From Microvirga sp. TS319 (GTDB lineage: Bacteria; Pseudomonadota; Alphaproteobacteria; Rhizobiales; Beijerinckiaceae), in contig NZ_JBGGGT010000002.1 in NCBI RefSeq assembly GCF_041276405.1, forward strand, positions 1,153,001-1,217,000: a DNA stretch of 64,000 nt, in the 5' to 3' direction. The first letter of the stretch is position 1; the number at the start of each line of letters is the position of its first letter. Below, one piece after another: positions 21,578 through 29,458 of this stretch. The notes below the pieces were generated by a model. It made no database searches. It was not told the DNA's origin and saw nothing but the letters and a program-made list of their open reading frames with translations. The position numbers were made by a program, and so were the translations under genes.

Positions 21578-21659
21578 TTCAGTCTCGCTCATGTCACAGA
21601 AGGGGTAATTGCTTTTCCTCCTAGTAGCTGGTGAAATCCAGAAACCTAGGGGGCGAGTA

Positions 21660-22466
21660 ATGGCTAAGGTAAGCTGGGCGAATTTTGCGAAAGGATACAA
21701 CGAGAGTTCTGGAGCCTTCCAAGATTATGGCTTCGATCTCCGAAATATAATCCTCGAAGAGACATCAGATCCGTTCAGCTCTAGTACGTCGCAATTTTAC
21801 GTCATGCAGACGAGTGCATATCATTTCGTCGCGGGAGATTATTTTTCCGGATCGTTCGTACTGGGTGATTCTTTCTCCGGTATCAAATCGGGGACGGTCA
21901 ATAGCTTCACGAGGAAGTATGACGGAAAGGTTCTTGGCACGATATCAGGGCTGAGCCTTGATTACAGTGCAGTGGCCGCTGCAGCAAAAACGCCAACCAA
22001 AACAGATGACATGGCCCTGTGGGCCAAGGCTTTTGCAGGAAACGATATTTTTTCAGGAAGCAAGGCAAGTGACCGCTTCGAAGGTTTTGCTGGAAACGAC
22101 ACGATTAAGGGTATGGGCGGGGCAGATAAGCTCTATGGTGGCGCCGGGGCTGACACATTCATCTTCTCGTCCACAAAGGACAGCACAATGGCTAGTTCGG
22201 GCCGTGATACGATCTAGGACTTTTCCTCCCGGCAACAGGACACGATCGATTTGAGATTAATCGACGCCAGCACAAAGGCCGTCGGCAACAACATGTTCAA
22301 ATACATCGGCACTCAGGATTTTCATAAGAAGGCTGGTGAGCTGCGCTGGGAAAAGGTGAAGAGCGGCACCTTTGTCTATGGCGATGTAACCGGAGACGGA
22401 AAAGCGGATTTCTCCATCTTTCTGAAGGACGTGGCTAAACTGATAAAGAGCGATTTCTATCTTTGA
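21660..22466 (+). pseudogene. RTX (haemolysin-type Ca-binding) protein broken by an amber codon
   Basis: The reading frame from ATG 21660 runs to TAG at 22215-22217 and continues in the same frame to a normal stop at 22466, giving about 268 codons in all. The first part has a lectin-like start and RTX nonapeptides (GNDIFSGSK, GNDTIKGMGGADKLYGGAGAD). The second part is the conserved serralysin-type C-terminus (QDTIDLRLIDASTK, YGDVTGDGKADFSIF). Homologues read TI-Tyr-DFS at the break, so a single base change made the stop. AT content is higher than in neighbours, suggesting later acquisition. It is either a recent pseudogene or read through. Confidence 0.8.
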
Positions 22467-22522: not shown

Positions 22523-23125
22523 CTACACCGTGAAATGCTTGATGAAGCAAAGGTTGGTCGGCGTGGTCAGACGCTCGAAGCCATACCGAAGAGCAACTGC
22601 CTGGAGGATCTCGTTATGAACCTGCTCCAAGAATATGCCCTTGAACCCGCGCTGGGGCAGCTCGCGCTCGAGAAAGGCCATGAGGGATCGGAAGGCGCCT
22701 TTGCTATACATGGTACCCTTTGGCTTCGATGGATCCTTGCTCACTCGGTAGGGGCTGTCACCCTTGCTAATCTTGTCGTCGATGATGGCATCGATAATTG
22801 GGCCGTCTAGGCCAAGCCGGATCAGCGGGAAGTAGTCCTTATAGTCGTGGGCCGTTCGCACGTAGATCGACATCAACAGGTCCGACCGGGCAAAGCCCTC
22901 GATGTCGAACAGGACGTCTGCACCGAAAAATATCTCTCCTGGTTTCAGGTAGTCCAAGAACTCGGGAAGCGGCATCAGCTTCAGATAGGTCGGAAGCTCA
23001 TCGTACTCGCCATACGACGATGCTAATTCTCTATTATAGCCCAGGTATTTGGGTGCTCGCTCAGAGTTCTCAATGAACCCATCATCGTCATCAGCCAACA
23101 AGTCAGTCATCCCGCCTTGCTCCAT
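22523..23125 (-). CDS. hypothetical protein with possible GNAT-like C-terminus
   Basis: A protein of about 200 residues starting at MEQGGMTDLLADDDD; an inner ATG at 23110, 4-5 bases after AAGGCGG, is equally possible. Upstream in-frame sequence lies in the gap to the next gene and was left out. The C-terminal FLERELPQRGFKGIFLEQVHNEILQ to RYGFE pattern recalls the end of an acetyltransferase fold, but the acetyl-CoA P-loop is not evident. It follows the VasI-like gene by about 50 bases on the same strand, so they may be co-transcribed. Confidence 0.5.
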   Translation of the reverse strand: MEQGGMTDLLADDDDGFIENSERAPKYLGYNRELASSYGEYDELPTYLKLMPLPEFLDYLKPGEIFFGADVLFDIEGFARSDLLMSIYVRTAHDYKDYFPLIRLGLDGPIIDAIIDDKISKGDSPYRVSKDPSKPKGTMYSKGAFRSLMAFLERELPQRGFKGIFLEQVHNEILQAVALRYGFERLTTPTNLCFIKHFTV

Positions 23126-23177
23126 CCGGTCTGCGGCGCCCCCTGATGGAGTGTTGAGCGTGATGGTTAACAATACC

Positions 23178-23774
23178 TTACCATTTGCATGCTTCTCGGA
23201 GCGGCTTAATGGCGTCTTCGATCCCAGTGATCGGAAAATCCATTTCAATGGCAGATTCATTAAATGGTACTGCGCGGATGTAGAGAGATTTACCGCCAAA
23301 CAGGTCCTTGATGTAAGGCACTGCAGTACGGTTGCCCCAAAGGCCGAGAGCAGAATTGTCATTGGACTCAATCATGGAAAGCGTCTTCGGAGTGTTGCTG
23401 TCTACGCGGGCGCTAACCTTTCCGCCCCCCTGTACGCTCGACATGAAATGGTCGCCAAATATAAAGTATATGTTAGTCGCTTTCTCTCGGCAGGTGATGT
23501 GCAGTGATCCAAATTTGTCCTGGCCGTACTTCCCGCGGACGGGTTCAGCCGACAGGACTGAGAGAAAGACTTCACGGGAATCGTCTAAGCGCGACTTCTC
23601 TTCTCTGACCTGCCAAATGCTTGCATTCGCCACATTGGCTGTCTTTCGATGAGCGAGATCGTAGCACTCCAGTCTAGTCTTATCATCCGACAGTGCGGCA
23701 CAGACTTTAGGATCCTGAGCGTGAGCAGCCAAAGGTGTAAGGCAGAGTGTTGCCATCATGAAATAATGATACAT
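23178..23774 (-). CDS. secreted VasI-like protein (type VI-associated family fold)
   Basis: A 198-residue protein with a Sec signal peptide (cleavage near AHAQ). The mature part has KVCAALSDDKTRLECYDLAH at its start, TCREKATNIYF in the middle and a GIEDAIKPLREACKW end. This is the pattern of the VasI family (PF11319) first named for type VI secretion clusters and also present as stand-alone genes in prophages. No type VI genes are nearby, so the name reflects fold only. It is low in GC compared with the late operon and probably lysogen-expressed cargo. Confidence 0.65.
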   Translation of the reverse strand: MYHYFMMATLCLTPLAAHAQDPKVCAALSDDKTRLECYDLAHRKTANVANASIWQVREEKSRLDDSREVFLSVLSAEPVRGKYGQDKFGSLHITCREKATNIYFIFGDHFMSSVQGGGKVSARVDSNTPKTLSMIESNDNSALGLWGNRTAVPYIKDLFGGKSLYIRAVPFNESAIEMDFPITGIEDAIKPLREACKW

Positions 23775-23959
23775 TACACCCCCAATTCAGTCAGAATTTA
23801 TCTATTTTCCTAGGCTTTGAAGCCATCGGCAAGGCCGTGGCCCTGCCGATGGCCCGCCCATATTCCCCCGCCAACGAGGACATCATGACCACCGAGACAC
23901 TCGGGCGGACGCTGAACCGTGCTGCCTGTGGCAGGTGAGGAGAGAACGAGGGCCTCCGC

Positions 23960-24943
23960 TTAGCCCCCGGGCTTCGGAAGTGCTGGAGGTGTAAGGGTTG
24001 CAATAGCCAGTTGCGCCACTGAGGGAGCGATCTGCCCCTTCGAAACCTTTCCTTGGAGATAGCCTTGGAACTTGCCGCCTTCCAGGTAGACATCTTGAAG
24101 CCATTGCCTGAACTCGCCTAGCGCCGCGAGTGGATAGCACCAAGACTCCTGCGGGTTTGATTTTGACTGAGGATGACTGTCAGGATAGCGATGAGGATAC
24201 TTCCCTCGCTCAAATTGGGCGGCCAGACCGGACGCCTCCCAGTGTTTAGACCAGTGCTGGCCAATGGAGATGTCGACGACAAAGTTTGCGCCGATGTCAG
24301 CCCCGGCCATAATGAGCTCATAGATAATGGTATGAGCCTCGTTGAAGACATGGAAATAGCCTTTAGGGGCGGATTGGTAATTTAGAGCAATCCTCTCATG
24401 CCACCTTTCGAACTTGGCGCTGTTCTTGCCAGAAGGGTCATAGCCGAGTTGGCTGTAAATCATCTCCCGCAGCTTGGAGCCCGCGAGCAGCCGGAAATTG
24501 TCTCGAGCTTCGGGCTGGCAGTTCGAGCCAGCGTCAAATGCATAATACTCTAGCACGGCAAGGCAAACTTCAGCCGGATAGCAGTAATGTGTACGCCCCG
24601 CATGGAGGATCTCGAAATGAGCTGATGCTGCGGTGTACCCGGCCTTCTCCAGAATAGCCTTGATGGCTTTTATGCGGGGCTTCTCATCATCATCATTCCA
24701 CTGGGAGCTGATAGTGCCAATATGGGCGTTCTGCACACCACATAGTGCCGCTAGTCCGCGCTGGTTAAGGTAAGGGGTTCCATCGGAGAGGACACCCATG
24801 CCGACATCGCCAAAATCCGCGTTCTTTTCGATACCCAGGTTGAAAGAAGCCTGTTTCTGACTGATTTCCTTCGATGTCGAATTCTGCGCTAAAACACTGA
24901 TTTTATTAGCGCTTGAACTGATTTCCTTTGTGCTCTTTGCCAT
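23960..24943 (-). CDS. prophage KilA-N/antirepressor-like protein, possible BstA-type exclusion protein
   Basis: A 327-residue protein. After a Ser/Lys-rich lead of about 45 residues comes a DNA-binding-type domain (VLSDGTPYLNQRGLAALCGV to PAEVCLAVLEYYAFDAG). The C-terminal half has FHVFNEAHTIIYELI, DISIGQHWSKHWEASG and CYPLAALGEFRQWLQDVYL. Length, prophage setting and domain order recall BstA-like abortive-infection proteins, but I cannot confirm the family; P63C-type phage proteins are the main alternative. It is expressed against the late genes. Confidence 0.6.
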   Translation of the reverse strand: MAKSTKEISSSANKISVLAQNSTSKEISQKQASFNLGIEKNADFGDVGMGVLSDGTPYLNQRGLAALCGVQNAHIGTISSQWNDDDEKPRIKAIKAILEKAGYTAASAHFEILHAGRTHYCYPAEVCLAVLEYYAFDAGSNCQPEARDNFRLLAGSKLREMIYSQLGYDPSGKNSAKFERWHERIALNYQSAPKGYFHVFNEAHTIIYELIMAGADIGANFVVDISIGQHWSKHWEASGLAAQFERGKYPHRYPDSHPQSKSNPQESWCYPLAALGEFRQWLQDVYLEGGKFQGYLQGKVSKGQIAPSVAQLAIATLTPPALPKPGG

Positions 24944-25184
24944 CGCAGATTCCCCCTCATGAGATTATAAGCGTATCGAACCACACCATCGCAGTGGGTG
25001 TCTAGCCCGAGCAGACCTTCAGACCCGGAAGAGATGACTTTTACGCACGTGGACTCAGTCTGAAAAAGCATACGATTGCAAAGTGTTAACCGGCAAAAAA
25101 GCACCGAAAAGCGCCAAGTGAATCACACCCTCTCCAGCCGCTCTCACTGGGCGGCTTGTTCGTGCCCACAACCGAGGAATCCCA

Positions 25185-25838
25185 ATGGACAAGACGGTCC
25201 CCAAACCGGCTGCGATGCTGCTCGACTTCATCGGCAGCAAGGAAGCGCCGAGAGGCTATGACACGGTCTATGCGAACCGCATGGACAGGATGCCGAAGCC
25301 CCTCACGTCGATGACGATGAAGGAGATCCTCGACCAGGGGAAATGGAGGGCCAAGACCTTCGGCTCGTCGGCCTGTGGCCGGTATCAGTTCATGGACGCC
25401 ACGCTGCGCGATCTTGCGACAGAGCTCAACCTCAAGGCCGAGGACCGCTTCACGCCGGACTATCAGGACCGGCTCGGCCTGCATCTGCTCCGGCGCCGCG
25501 GTTACGACAAGTGGATTAAGGGCGCGCTCTCGGATGCCGAGTTCATGCTCAACATTTCGAAGGAATGGGCCTCGTTCCCGTTGCCCTATGCGGTCAAGGG
25601 CGGCAGCCGGACCGTCAGTCGCGGCCAGAGCTTCTATGCCGGTGACGGGCTGAACAAGGCCCTCGTCTCGGCTGAGGCCGTTGAGAAGACTCTCGTCGTG
25701 GCACGCGTCGAGCAGACCGTCATCGCGGGCCCGCCGCCTCCCGACATCGAGCCTCTCCCGGTTCCCGTTCCCCAGCCCGCCACCAACGGCGGGCTTTTTG
25801 CTGCCCTCGCCAACCTGCTGAAAAGGATCTCCGCATGA
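25185..25838 (+). CDS. endolysin, lysozyme-like muramidase
   Basis: A 217-residue phage lysozyme. The catalytic glutamate is likely Glu20 in LLDFIGSKEAPRGYD, and FGSSACGRYQFMDATLRDL is the substrate-cleft motif of phage muramidases with this fold. Residues about 180-200 are a Pro-rich linker (PPPPDIEPLPVPVPQP) before a C-terminal hydrophobic stretch (GGLFAALANLLKRI) that may anchor it to the membrane. No signal peptide, so release would depend on the adjacent holin candidate. Confidence 0.85.
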   Translation: MDKTVPKPAAMLLDFIGSKEAPRGYDTVYANRMDRMPKPLTSMTMKEILDQGKWRAKTFGSSACGRYQFMDATLRDLATELNLKAEDRFTPDYQDRLGLHLLRRRGYDKWIKGALSDAEFMLNISKEWASFPLPYAVKGGSRTVSRGQSFYAGDGLNKALVSAEAVEKTLVVARVEQTVIAGPPPPDIEPLPVPVPQPATNGGLFAALANLLKRISA

Positions 25839-26194
25839 ACCCGCTCATCCTCCTCCAAATCGCCGGCAGGGTCGCCGACGGCCTGGCGAAGAGCCCTTAC
25901 ATACCCGTTGAGCGCAAGGACGCTCCTGTCGTGAGGCAGGAGGTTGCCGAGGTTCTGCAGAAGGAGATCGCTCCTGTCATGGAGCACCTGACGAGCACAG
26001 AGCCTTGGTACCGCTCTCGAGCGAACTGGTCGGCTATTGTGGCGGGCCTGACGCCGCTCATAGCCATTGCTGGCTATAATCTGGCCCCCGAGGATCAGGC
26101 CACGATTGCGGGCGTCCTCACCCTCGCTGGCAACCTTGTGGCCGCTTATCTGGCTCGCCGCGCTAGGACCGCAACCAAGCCGCTCGGGCACTAA
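25835..26194 (+). CDS. holin-like membrane protein
   Basis: A 119-residue protein with ATGA coupling to the endolysin. Two hydrophobic segments lie near residues 66-82 (WSAIVAGLTPLIAIAGY) and 88-106 (TIAGVLTLAGNLVAAYLA), and the tail is basic. This topology and the position next to the lysozyme make it the best holin candidate. Similar proteins in rhizobial phages are annotated only as hypothetical. Confidence 0.65.
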   Translation: MNPLILLQIAGRVADGLAKSPYIPVERKDAPVVRQEVAEVLQKEIAPVMEHLTSTEPWYRSRANWSAIVAGLTPLIAIAGYNLAPEDQATIAGVLTLAGNLVAAYLARRARTATKPLGH

Positions 26195-26196
26195 GC

Positions 26197-26547
26197 ATGC
26201 AATTCAATTGGGACATCAACCTCTCGACGATCTTCATGATCGGGGCTTCGGCTCTCGCCCTGATCCGGTTCTGGATCCAGGCGGAGCAGAAGGCCAACCA
26301 AGCCGAGAAGCGGGCTATCATTGCCGAGGAGAAAGCCGACAAGGCTCATGAGAAGATCGCCATCCTCCAAGCCTCTGTGAACGCCTATCAGGTCACACAG
26401 GCCGAGCGTTTGGTGTCCCGAGAGGTCCTGCGGGAGGTAGAGGAGCGGCTGTCTGGATCGATCGATCAGCTCGGAGGGCGGTTCGAGAAGCTGGGTGAGA
26501 AATTGGATGGCTTCGTGAAGGAGTTGCTTCACCACCGGGGAGGGTAG
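26197..26547 (+). CDS. membrane-anchored coiled-coil protein, possible spanin or second holin
   Basis: A 116-residue protein with one N-terminal membrane segment (about residues 9-26) followed by a long coiled-coil (EQKANQAEKRAIIAEEKADK onward). It follows the holin-like gene by 2 bases. The build resembles an inner-membrane spanin (Rz-like), but there is no embedded Rz1-like lipoprotein frame that I can see. Confidence 0.6.
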   Translation: MQFNWDINLSTIFMIGASALALIRFWIQAEQKANQAEKRAIIAEEKADKAHEKIAILQASVNAYQVTQAERLVSREVLREVEERLSGSIDQLGGRFEKLGEKLDGFVKELLHHRGG

Positions 26548-26604
26548 GTCTGGCACGTGGGACCGCCATCTTGCCGCGGTGCCAGCTGCCTGCGATAAGC
26601 GGCC

Positions 26605-27144
26605 ATGCCCATCTACTGGATGAAAACCGCAGACGTTTACCCCGACATCCGGGAGGAGCATGACTTCATAGCCTTTGATCCGGAGGTGCGTTTCCCTCGG
26701 ACTCTCCCCGTCGAAGGCGATGAACAAATTGGGGCGGTTCGTCAGATCCGGGGCGGGCCCCAAGACGGTCAATGGTCCTGGGCCATGTACGTGTCACTTC
26801 CCGGGCCACGCTATGCCCAGCCGACGACTGGAACAGAAGCCACCAGAGGCGAAGCTGCCCGGAAGGTCATCGAAGCGTATCGACACTATCTCTCGACACG
26901 GCCGGAACAGTATCCTCGGAACAAGCCTCTCGCGGCGCGGGCGGCTTGGAGCCGCTCCATGGTCGCTTTGATCTCCTCGGCAGCCTTGGGCCCGCGAATG
27001 GCGATCACGCCGCGGTCTATCGTCTTTCCATCCGCATCCTTCCGGCCGTTGAAGAAGGCATCCCGCTGCTCCTTGCTCATCTTCAGGACAGTGCGGGCTT
27101 CGGTCTCGATCCGCCATTCCTCGGACCAGGTGTTGCCGGGCTAG
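26605..27144 (+). CDS. hypothetical protein, probably extended into antisense DNA
   Basis: The first 100 or so residues look genuine (GQWSWAMYVSLPGPRYAQP, TRGEAARKVIEAYRHYL), a pattern seen in small proteins of Rhizobiales genomes. From about 26,925 the frame runs through the antisense strand of the gene fragment at 26886-27224 and reads as low-information residues. The real gene probably ended near 26,920 and lost its stop through a deletion or rearrangement. Function unknown. Confidence 0.5.
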   Translation: MPIYWMKTADVYPDIREEHDFIAFDPEVRFPRTLPVEGDEQIGAVRQIRGGPQDGQWSWAMYVSLPGPRYAQPTTGTEATRGEAARKVIEAYRHYLSTRPEQYPRNKPLAARAAWSRSMVALISSAALGPRMAITPRSIVFPSASFRPLKKASRCSLLIFRTVRASVSIRHSSDQVLPG

Positions 27145-27224
27145 CTGGTGAGCTCGGAGATGGCAGCCATGTCACGGGAGTAGGTCATGTTGGGCGGGCA
27201 GGGAGCCTCCCTACGCTCAGTCAT
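26886..27224 (-). pseudogene. hypothetical phage-type protein broken by an amber codon
   Basis: On the minus strand a frame starts at ATG 27224 (MTERREAPCPPNMTYSRD), stops at TAG (27141-27143) and continues in the same frame as PGNTWSEEWRIETEARTVL to KATMERLQAARAARG. The continuation is clearly protein-like. The start overlaps the end of the DUF768 gene by 8 bases, so the two were an operon. Either a nonsense pseudogene or an amber read-through; the tail-to-tail overlap with 26605-27144 suggests decay. Confidence 0.6.
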
Positions 27225-27471
27225 CTTTGCCGGCTTGTCTCCGAACTTCTGCATCTGCAATCCTCTCCATCTGCCTATGAAGAAATTGCGCTAGATCACC
27301 ATGTTCCTCTTCTAATTGCTCTCGGGAGAAACCGCGCTGCTCTGCATCCGAAATAAGTTGCTCAGAAAGCCTTATAGCCTCTGGATCGACTCCATCTTCG
27401 CTTGGATATCCATTGAAGTGAATGTTCTCTGATATCCAATCGTGGATGAAGTCTCTGACATCGCTACTCAT
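27217..27471 (-). CDS. DUF768 family protein
   Basis: An 84-residue acidic protein. The pattern FIHDWISENIHFNGY, then PEAIRLSEQLISDAEQRGFSRE and a final helix, matches DUF768, a family of small proteins of unknown function found in rhizobia, often on plasmids and islands. It is followed (8-base overlap) by the broken gene at 26886-27224. Confidence 0.65.
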   Translation of the reverse strand: MSSDVRDFIHDWISENIHFNGYPSEDGVDPEAIRLSEQLISDAEQRGFSREQLEEEHGDLAQFLHRQMERIADAEVRRQAGKDD

Positions 27472-27629
27472 AAGCGATCCTCTTCTTTCGTAAGATGCTT
27501 CACGCTATTGGTCGTTTAAACCAACTTCAACCGGTGGCCAAGCACATCCCACAGGTGTCTTGTATGGGCCCTGTTTATTTGATTTGGCTCTCCGCGCACT
27601 GCCGTCAATCGGAGTTGGGGCAGCCTAGC

Positions 27630-28445
27630 TCACAACCTTATCGTCGGGAACTGTTGCTCATGAGTGCGATCAAGCAACAAATCTCTCGGCATGTTGTCTA
27701 ACATATCATTGTTGTTAATATAACTGAGCATATTCGTGCCATTGGCATGAACGCAGTTGTAGTAGAGAATAATCATCTCGTGGTCTGACAACTGGGCGCG
27801 TAGAACGCGAATATATTTCAGTTTAAATTCACGGTCATTATTTCTGTATACGAACTTTGCTTCGTCAACGAACCTTAGTATATTATACAACGACCTATAA
27901 TAGTGGCCCAGATAATTTCTGTGGTGCTGGTACATACCCTGATATGCGGCAACCGTCCGATGCGGCTCTTCTAGCGGAATTCCCGAGAATGCGGTGTTGA
28001 AGTACGACGATCTGAGATCTTCATAGAATTCAGAGAAAACCTGTTTTCCAATGATCTCTTTGAACTGTCTATTTCCCGTGTAATCAGTCTCTGATTTCAC
28101 AATCCGCAGACCGGAGACAACCTTATGATAGATATCCATAAGGTGAAAGAAAGTGGATTCGAAATTCTGTAGTTCGTTTGAGGAAAGCTGATCTTTGGTG
28201 AGGCTGCGCGTTGATGCAAGTTCTACTGACTGCAAGTAGGAAGTCCATAAAACTATGATAAGGGTCCCAAAACTCAATAATGGATTAATGGAGCCGCCAA
28301 CGAAATCCCCAAAGGTTCCGAGCTTGCCGATAACTCCATTATCTTGGCCTAGAGTTTTGTAGCCGTAAAGATAAACCGCCAATACGCCGATGGCTATTAT
28401 CCCAGATACAATTGTAAGCATAGGAACGATTATGGACTTTCTCAT
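27630..28445 (-). CDS. PutAbi-like phage abortive-infection membrane protein
   Basis: A 271-residue protein. Two membrane segments (about residues 6-28 and 55-73) are followed by a cytoplasmic domain with ELQNFESTFFHLMDIYHKVV, TVAAYQGMYQHHRNYLGHYYRSLYNIL and LRAQLSDHEMIILYYN. The F-F-x-L-M-x-x-Y/H-x-x-V and HYYRxLYxIL motifs match the putative phage abortive infection protein family (PutAbiC). The DNA is much richer in AT than the surroundings, indicating recent transfer. Most likely it protects the lysogen by killing or arresting it on infection by another phage. Confidence 0.78.
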   Translation of the reverse strand: MRKSIIVPMLTIVSGIIAIGVLAVYLYGYKTLGQDNGVIGKLGTFGDFVGGSINPLLSFGTLIIVLWTSYLQSVELASTRSLTKDQLSSNELQNFESTFFHLMDIYHKVVSGLRIVKSETDYTGNRQFKEIIGKQVFSEFYEDLRSSYFNTAFSGIPLEEPHRTVAAYQGMYQHHRNYLGHYYRSLYNILRFVDEAKFVYRNNDREFKLKYIRVLRAQLSDHEMIILYYNCVHANGTNMLSYINNNDMLDNMPRDLLLDRTHEQQFPTIRL

Positions 28446-28622
28446 TCTCTGCCCCCTCCTGCCCGGAGAATGAACTGCAACTAGGAGGCATCTATAGTGC
28501 TTTCTGCCGCCGATAAACTGAACTTTTTGCCAAATGCAAAATTCAGGATGGCCAGGCGAGGGCTCGCGTGACCTCGCGGTCAGATTGCAGGCGGGGCAGT
28601 GGTTGGTTCTGAACTCGGAAAA

Positions 28623-28745
28623 TCAAAGTACGGCTTCAGGATAACCGAGAGTGCCGCTGCTCATCTGAAGCCCTAGCCCCATAACGGACATCCGGTCGCG
28701 AATGACTGCCCATCGGTGGCCGCAATCTCTGGCAAGTGCGCTCAT
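28623..28745 (-). CDS. short hypothetical protein (40 aa)
   Basis: An ATG frame of 40 codons (MSALARDCGHRWAVIRDR) preceded by a strong GGGAGGA site and starting 13 bases after the stop of the gene at 28759-28992 on the same strand. The ribosome-binding site and spacing argue for translation, but length and lack of a family leave doubt. The rest of 28446-28622 shows nothing. Confidence 0.4.
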   Translation of the reverse strand: MSALARDCGHRWAVIRDRMSVMGLGLQMSSGTLGYPEAVL

Positions 28746-28758
28746 TCTGTCCTCCCAT

Positions 28759-28992
28759 TCATGAGATGGGTGGGGGGCAAAGGCGAGTCTCATATTCATG
28801 GGCTATTGTAGCTGCAGCGAGACGGTCCCAATCGTACTGAGGGGCCCCGAAGGTGACTTCCCCATCCGAGAGAAAGCTGCGGTAGGCAGTCCGAGCCAAG
28901 GGGAGCGCCTGCTGGGCCTTTAGCTTCCCGGCCCGGGCAATATGCACAACCAACTGAATGAGGGATTGGCTTTGAGGCAGGCGTCCGCTCAT
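28759..28992 (-). CDS. small hypothetical protein
   Basis: A 77-residue protein from the ATG giving MSGRLPQSQSLIQLVVHIAR, preceded by GAAGGG; a TTG 12 bases further up would add four residues. The pattern IARAGKLKAQQALPLARTAYRSF and YDWDRLAAATIAHEYE looks like a genuine helical fold of the kind common in Rhizobiales small proteins. Possibly the last prophage gene before the candidate attachment site. Confidence 0.5.
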   Translation of the reverse strand: MSGRLPQSQSLIQLVVHIARAGKLKAQQALPLARTAYRSFLSDGEVTFGAPQYDWDRLAAATIAHEYETRLCPPPIS

Positions 28993-29118
28993 GCGGCCCT
29001 TCAACCTGCGAGAGGGGCGGGAAAAGGTTTGCCAAAAGGCAGAAAAAACCCAAGAAATTCAGTGGGGCCTTTTCGCAGGTTTGCCACTGTTAAGTGGCTG
29101 ATATCATTCGTGGGTGGC

Positions 29119-29137
29119 AATCCTGCCGGGCCCACCA
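29119..29137 (+). other. candidate prophage attachment core (tRNA 3'-end-like)
   Basis: The 19 bases AATCCTGCCGGGCCCACCA read exactly as the 3' end of a tRNA: last T-loop bases, 5-nt T-stem strand CCTGC, 7-nt acceptor strand CGGGCCC, discriminator A and CCA. Upstream bases do not make a tRNA, so this is only a 3' fragment, as left when a phage integrates into a tRNA gene. The last phage-like gene ends just left of it. The matching intact tRNA would lie left of the window. Confidence 0.45.
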
Positions 29138-29458
29138 CCTAACATAATCAATGACTTAGTTGTTGGTTTGATGTCATTAGCGACATTGATTAGCGACAGT
29201 TCCACCGGGCTAGGTGCAGGCTGAACGAGCGAACCTACAAGCGTCATCTCGAAAATCTGGCATAACAGATTGGAAAACTGTGGGTTGGATCAAACTGAAT
29301 TGTCACAGGGTAGGTACAAAGCCGCCTCGTTCCCATTATGCTATTGCGTTTGATCGTGGACAGTAGGCTTGGTGCTATTGACGCGAAGATGGCTCTTGAT
29401 GTTGCATCGTTTGTTTCTCAGACCTGAGAGATGAAAAACGTTGCATACGGGGGCAAAT
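29138..29458. other. intergenic, no gene seen
   Basis: About 320 bases right of the candidate attachment core. The only visible structure is a 10-nt direct repeat ATTAGCGACA occurring twice 13 bases apart near 29175-29200. No convincing reading frame or promoter. Confidence 0.5.

Follow-up and report, generated by a model that had tools for sequence, protein, structure and literature searches.

How does a prophage that encodes an abortive infection protein avoid its own defence? The question is raised by bstA, a minus-strand gene (23960-24943) in a 64,000-nt stretch of Microvirga sp. TS319 (contig NZ_JBGGGT010000002.1, positions 1,153,001 to 1,217,000), referred to below as the window. According to the accessible parts of Owen 2021 (PMC8585504), BstA of the Salmonella prophage BTP1 aborts infection by blocking phage DNA replication, and BTP1 is spared by aba, a 63-bp DNA element comprising 29 bp upstream of bstA and the first 34 bp of the gene. 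The terminal CCCGCC direct repeats of aba are required, a one-base change in either of them abolishes function, and the element acts as DNA in self-immunity, in trans as well. E. coli and Klebsiella bstA loci carry aba elements of their own, and the BTP1 aba gave no protection against those systems; no sequence rule for these elements is stated in the accessible text, which does not settle how aba DNA suppresses its BstA or why some phages are sensitive and others insensitive. We find that the window gene is likely a prophage BstA defence gene with its own aba self-immunity element, placed within the coding sequence at 24860-24928.

The bstA gene and its candidate aba element

The features on which the analysis centres are as follows.

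23960-24943, minus strand: bstA, 327-aa BstA-family prophage defence protein (PADLOC, PHROG)
24860-24928, minus strand: candidate aba self-immunity element, 69 bp, wholly in the bstA coding sequence (residues 6-28, disordered tail)
24917-24928, minus strand: repeat R1, AAGGAAATCAGT, at bstA +15 (counted from 0)
24890-24903, minus strand: central motif AAATCAGTGTTTTA, found by motif search (family consensus AAATCAAnnnnTTA)
24860-24871, minus strand: repeat R2, AAGGAAATCAGT, at bstA +72 (counted from 0)
24713-24730, minus strand: codons 72-77 (NAHIGT), in the predicted recognition helix 72-81 (model)
24575-24616, minus strand: codons 110-123, predicted wing hairpin (model)

The product is a full-length member of the BstA family. 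Residues 28-317 of 327 match positions 3-287 of the 292 in the PADLOC BstA profile PDLC02356 (E = 9.6e-115), the protein matches phrog_6287, "BstA abortive infection system", at 1.9e-84, and residues 25-323 are 42% identical to BTP1 BstA. A preliminary description of this DNA, made from the letters alone, had suggested a KilA-N/antirepressor-like protein that could be BstA-type, and the profile matches bear out the BstA identity. Pfam returned no match for the window copy, though the protein database gives PF26567 for its relatives. These number 1694 database proteins at E 0.001; the best 120 include the window protein, and the other 119 are 71-79% identical to it. Within a thin sample of 385 whole genomes of the class, six contained a BstA-profile match. 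One alphaproteobacterial genome (G026) has five such sites (L008, L010, L011, L012, and L013), four of them with equal score and length, perhaps reflecting a mobile or amplified BstA-like gene.

An AlphaFold model of the window protein, built with 39 sequences, has a mean pLDDT of 85.6, and only residues 1-33 fall under 50, pointing to a disordered N-terminal extension. VIA-align matched the N-terminal domain moderately to winged-helix structures and returned no convincing match for the C-terminal half, a result with no bearing on the novelty of that half. Foldseek gave no match of the model to the PDB at E ≤0.001, and the BstA profile matched no solved chain at E 0.1.

The two 12-bp copies of the repeat are exact, direct, and spaced 57 bp apart. 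A shorter form, GGAAATCA, paired at a spacing of 55-59, occurs in the 6.26-Mb genome solely at the window element. By sequence, the gene thus has what marks an aba, an element at the gene start bounded by terminal direct repeats. The gene belongs to the known BstA family, and its wholly coding aba is a variant. An inverted repeat, GCGCTAA ... TTAGCGC, also surrounds the central motif (24882-24910, minus strand).

A spacing rule across the BstA family

The window and 282 further loci were examined; several of these are the window again or a contig in duplicate, and were merged by clustering. Anchoring on the conserved MG[VIL][LM] motif placed bstA in 273 loci, and 269 had enough clean upstream sequence, forming 88, 30, and 14 clusters at 80%, 60%, and 50% protein identity, respectively. 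Within the start region, exact direct repeats six or more bases long were spaced 57 bp apart in 43 of the 88 clusters and 56 bp apart in 18, against a mean of 3.6 over spacings 15-109. At spacings 56 and 57, the counts in the upstream control region were 0 and 4; a further control region gave 4 and 4, and the gene body 2 and 7. A stricter test, in which the first copy had to lie 95-145 bases before the anchor, was passed at 56/57 bp by 59/88, 22/30, and 10/14 clusters, whereas 100 dinucleotide shuffles reached at most 6, 5, and 3.

The letters of the repeat are clade-specific (CCCGCCA, GGTCA, GATCCC, CCGGCCACC, CGCGCAC, GGAAATC, and others). Relative to the protein core, the repeats keep almost the same position, with the likely start codon shifting around them. 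In a coupling test that tolerates insertions and deletions (indels), and that replaced a placement by nearest relative without them, the two copies within a locus fitted each other better than the copies of related loci in 71 of the 88 clusters, and worse in 14. Unsupervised motif discovery in 55 clusters (70% identity) also recovered AAATCAAnnnnTTA about midway between the repeats, at 9.4 bits. The upstream control gave 6.1 bits and the gene body 10.7; since the gene body is conserved coding sequence, its value is not comparable and the upstream control is the fair one. The BTP1 form of the motif, AAATCAAATGGTTA, includes the start codon. The rule is a direct repeat with clade-specific letters, its copies 56-57 bp apart and almost fixed in position around AAATCAAnnnnTTA; about two thirds of the examined BstA clusters obey it.

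Two E. coli loci, L430 and L431, have near-alike bstA starts and differ in the first repeat (GATCTC and GATCGC, respectively), with GATCGC as the second repeat in both; they offer a naturally occurring comparison with which to test the tag. Of 5426 complete E. coli genomes, 43 contained BstA relatives of the CL707 type.

Repeat letters and the predicted recognition helix

The clade-specific letters were compared with the residues of BstA, after removal of overall identity, in 73 loci with confident repeats; three others of the 76 such loci (L019, L083, and L118) were left out, as the chosen pair looked misplaced by eye. Residue 76 ranked first among 250 variable columns (partial r 0.34, compared with a maximum of 0.22 in 200 label permutations), and residues 73, 72, 74, and 77 ranked 4, 5, 10, and 14. 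All five belong to helix 72-81 of the predicted winged-helix domain. When 256 windows of six residues were ranked, 71-76 came first and 111-116, in the wing hairpin, second; when pairs with NAHIGT on both sides were dropped, the two exchanged places. For pairs 40-50% identical elsewhere, the shared repeat words were 4.67 letters long where at least four of the six helix residues agreed, versus 2.67 where at most two did, the pairs being non-independent. Examples are NAHIGT with GGAAATC, DTPLRV with GATCCC, and RSTIQE with CCGGCCACC. In phages of the Salmonella and Pseudomonas types, which are 44-46% identical, the helices HSVIQD, HSVIQS, and HKVIQD accompany CCCGCCA or CCGCCAG. In the Klebsiella-phage, E. 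coli-type, and BTP1 bstA genes examined, both helix and repeat differ, in line with the reported lack of cross-immunity, with the caveat that these genes may not be the alleles of Owen 2021.

Several observations weigh against so simple a rule and code. In the stricter spacing test, 29 of the 88 clusters stayed under the threshold, with some pairs imperfect and a few clusters without any pair. Without indels, the coupling test was passed by only 20 of 88 clusters, and by 4 of the 54 with a diverged first copy. Residues 161 and 208 took the second and third ranks in the tracking test, and windows at 174-176 were also high, indicating that other contacts or linked changes exist. Alike helices can accompany unlike words, as in NRHIAT with ACTCACC and NAHIGT with GGAAATC, or in HSVIFR and HSVIQD. 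Since the repeat letters track the predicted helix and wing, aba is probably a BstA binding site, read by a helix-to-repeat code.

Elements away from bstA

A scan of IMG/VR phage contigs with AGGAAATC-N49-AGGAAATC used the repeat letters only, and its orphan numbers are a lower bound. It returned at least 120 stretches with 122 sites, 110 of them unique among the matches listed. A central signature (CA at base 28 and TT at base 35) was present in 23 of these 110 unique sites; the register was picked after viewing the bstA genes and the first eight orphans, and the other 38 registers, taken as the control, had a mean of 0.5 and a maximum of 4. Eight of the 23 listed signature sites belong to bstA genes, seven by tblastn and one (L400, where the stretch stops short) through its containment in the bstA loci L027 and L131, and at least 15 lie away from bstA. 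BstA was detected in none of the 18 whole records, possibly fragments themselves, that carry these 15 orphan elements, whereas it was detected in the control record. No NAHIGT-like helix was found in the 15 fetched orphan stretches. Annotated orphan sites include the following.

L395 and L396: helicase-methyltransferase genes
L347: replication initiator
L301: near a terminase gene
L308: near an integrase gene

No family was found for L326 and L336, or for the open reading frames (ORFs) over the element in L301 and L308. The orphan elements are candidate anti-BstA decoys.

The full pattern was also searched in 397 bacterial genomes of the order, where it occurred in the window and in one other genome only, and in 385 genomes of the class, where it occurred in the window only. 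In the other genome, the site is the start of a bstA gene whose protein is 70.5% identical to the window BstA and has the NAHIGT helix. This recovery of a second bstA from DNA alone counts as a success for the rule, small but blind.

BTP1-type elements were also considered as orphans, and this was rejected: 24 of 25 sites in the corresponding scan are at bstA genes (23 by tblastn; L424, cut by the end of its stretch, is contained in the bstA locus L057). The remaining site, L418, has an intact tag, with both repeats and the centre, before a decayed, truncated bstA remnant; there the tag was kept and the gene lost, a state related to that of the orphan tags.

Proposed mechanism and alternative explanations

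Self-immunity of the window prophage, binding of its element by BstA, and inactivation of the bound BstA are suggested by the BTP1 precedent together with the repeat statistics. BstA made by the lysogen would stop incoming phage DNA from replicating, an activity demonstrated in BTP1. Most likely, the winged helix of BstA would bind R1 and R2, about 5.4 helical turns apart, with further contacts at the centre, and the complex on a matching tag would hold BstA inactive there, letting the induced prophage escape. The window clade would have this tag translated into the disordered N-terminal tail, whose main role may be to carry it. More broadly, aba may be a modular, decodable family tag, with repeats 56-57 bp apart, letters set by helix and wing, and a AAATCAAnnnnTTA centre, and the 15 distinct GGAAATC-type elements, correct in spacing and register, which BstA-less phages would have gained or retained without the gene, may act as counter-defence decoys; we offer this wider reading tentatively, as somewhat short of evenly balanced.

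A translated element could instead be conserved for its peptide, KEIS...KEIS, under protein-level selection unrelated to DNA recognition. In the window clade the repeats are indeed in frame, with both window copies translated 19 codons apart. The codon choice, however, is fixed: in 14 relatives, all 28 Glu-Ile pairs in the bstA frame of the element are written GAA ATC, whereas GAA and ATC account for 46% and 52% of the respective codons in the rest of the gene, and a TTA codon is present in the element of 13 of the 14, compared with 3.5% of Leu codons elsewhere (the relatives share ancestry, and the counts are given without a p-value). The spacing is also unchanged where the first copy is untranslated, as in BTP1, or directly before the likely ATG, as in L025-L027; the tail is disordered in the model; and the DNA element recurs in other genes and other frames. 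Selection on the peptide is thus barely credible. A stronger contender is an autoregulatory operator that limits BstA expression, with self-immunity either secondary or, in the window clade, missing. The element sits at the gene start, often overlapping the likely ribosome-binding site or start codon, and KilA-N-type winged helices are usual regulators. Against this stand the at least 15 such elements with no detected bstA beside them, sites at which control of bstA would be pointless, and the BTP1 element, for which a self-immunity function as DNA, including in trans, was demonstrated (PMC8585504). We judge the operator explanation improbable; autoregulation through these sites nonetheless deserves to be taken seriously, as a rival of the self-immunity reading or as a second role.

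A different proposal, building on the preliminary description, concerns not the repeats but the surrounding genes, namely that the cargo block is one superinfection-exclusion island, an undescribed mixed system in which BstA, putAbiC, the VasI-like protein, and the DUF768 protein act together. Its genes are the following.

27630-28445, minus strand: putAbiC-family protein (PF16872, 71.7 bits against a cut-off of 22; phrog_8999, 6.4e-31)
23178-23774, minus strand: VasI-like protein (PF11319, 44.1 bits against 26.5; phrog_1848)
27217-27471, minus strand: DUF768 protein, a small gene (PF05589, 4.9e-10)
26886-27080, minus strand: DUF7696 protein, a small gene (PF24751, 1.3e-9)

The family assignments made there hold: the PutAbi-like protein scores well above its Pfam gathering cut-off and the VasI-like protein above its own, the DUF768 gene is present, and putAbiC is as AT-rich as described, with 42.4% G+C compared with 62.1% in window 1-21000 and 62.5% on the host side (33000-64000). 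The putAbiC product resembles AbiC and AbiP only partially and weakly (PADLOC), and its abortive infection activity is putative. The protein of 23178-23774 is under the equivalog cut-off for the type VI secretion system (TIGR03360, 29.7 versus 124.2 bits) and is for this reason called VasI-like rather than a type VI VasI; its relatives occur in 23 phage records, some near the genome end. For a joint island speak the shared strand, the lower G+C of several block genes relative to the phage genes, and the two putative defence families at most 5 kb apart. When the window genes were searched by tblastn against 279 loci, 272 of them BstA-bearing (median length 8.9 kb, many redundant), the VasI-like gene was found near BstA in one (L212), and putAbiC, DUF768, DUF7696, and the holin-like ORF in none, within the flanks available. 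A conserved multi-gene island as a fixed unit is, therefore, rejected, a looser association may exist, and joint action of the block is very unlikely; BstA alone is, moreover, an already described system. The preliminary description stands for the BstA, PutAbi, and VasI-like identities, the prophage, and the attachment site, and finds no support for the single island; the aba-like element within bstA was overlooked in it.

Comparison with known systems

The window locus resembles BTP1 BstA-aba (PMC8585504) in its full-length, prophage-encoded homologue with a predicted DNA-binding N-terminal domain. At the start of both genes, terminal direct repeats with a spacing of about 56-57 bp enclose a common central motif. 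The two differ in the protein (42% identity), the repeats (GGAAATC(AGT) versus CCCGCC), and the helix (NAHIGT versus HSVIQD), and the window element is wholly coding, whereas that of BTP1 spans the start codon. The window bstA lies beside a lysis cassette and the VasI-like gene, whereas that of BTP1 lies behind the repressor; in the accessible parts of the same report, 79% of 72 BstA homologues are located in prophages, and a site downstream of the repressor is common but not obligatory. Closer to the window are the BstA proteins of alphaproteobacterial phages and plasmids (Azospirillum plasmid p4, L016; IMG/VR L003 and L022-L029), which are 61-77% identical. A GGAAATC pair at 57 bp was counted, where visible, in 23 of the window's BstA neighbours, and L016 has a lysozyme gene near bstA, as in the window. 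They differ in that the first copy precedes the likely start codon in L025-L027, and L002 is without the pair.

A literature search, which left out most subscription papers and all bioRxiv preprints, found no account of the spacing rule, helix-repeat tracking, or orphan tags, and no other paper on the make-up of aba. The accessible parts of PMC12172434 use BstA as a test system and do not mention aba. The rule makes both questions left by Owen 2021 testable, as the tag can be predicted from DNA, helices can be set against repeats, and the tag can be hunted in bstA-less phages. If true, decoy tags would make BstA-less phages resistant to BstA lysogens and partly explain BstA-insensitive phages. 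A "spare me" tag of prophages, possibly forged by other phages, would give conflict between phages a clear-cut example of both self/non-self marking and mimicry.

Prophage setting

A prophage of about 42.5 kb, bounded by 20-bp repeats, reaches into the window with its right-hand 29 kb; the integrase and early genes are at the end opposite bstA. Other features of the prophage are listed below.

Window, plus strand: terminase, portal, head protease, major head protein, tape measure, tail, and fibre genes
G000:C2:1139623-1140723, 13 kb left of the window: integrase gene
29121-29140, plus strand: att-like 20-bp exact repeat at the right end of the prophage; second copy just beyond the integrase gene
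25185-26547, plus strand: lysis cassette (PHROG matches)
25185-25838, plus strand: endolysin (phrog_90, 4.6e-35)
25835-26194, plus strand: holin-like ORF (weak holin match only, 1.3e-3)
26197-26547, plus strand: small ORF of the lysis cassette
22523-23140, minus strand: ORF without a family match, just outside the block 23178-28992

The phage structural genes, the integrase gene, and the flanking repeat confirm the prophage setting of the preliminary description, and the recurrence of the 20-bp repeat supports its nearby attachment site. The minus-strand ORFs that it reported are all present, opposite a plus-strand lysis region. Profile searches with the ORF 22523-23140, and with a longer reading of it, gave no family match. 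A scan of 23000-29200 for sigma-70-type promoters and terminators stayed at chance level (5 versus 3.5 and 7 versus 5.5, respectively).

Three further genes were observed in or beside the prophage. A flagellin-like ORF of 510 aa (G000:C2:1150594-1152126, plus strand; L284:13594-15123), about 0.9 kb left of the window, sits between the early genes and the terminase gene and matches NCBIfam PRK12687 at 8.8e-68, under the family cut-off. The tail fibre gene is followed by an ORF (21609-22466, plus strand) that has calcium-binding repeats of the RTX/serralysin type and is broken by an in-frame stop; the search covered the first piece, before the stop. Just beyond the prophage end lies a phosphatidylethanolamine-binding-protein gene (PBP, PF01161; 29441-29845, plus strand).

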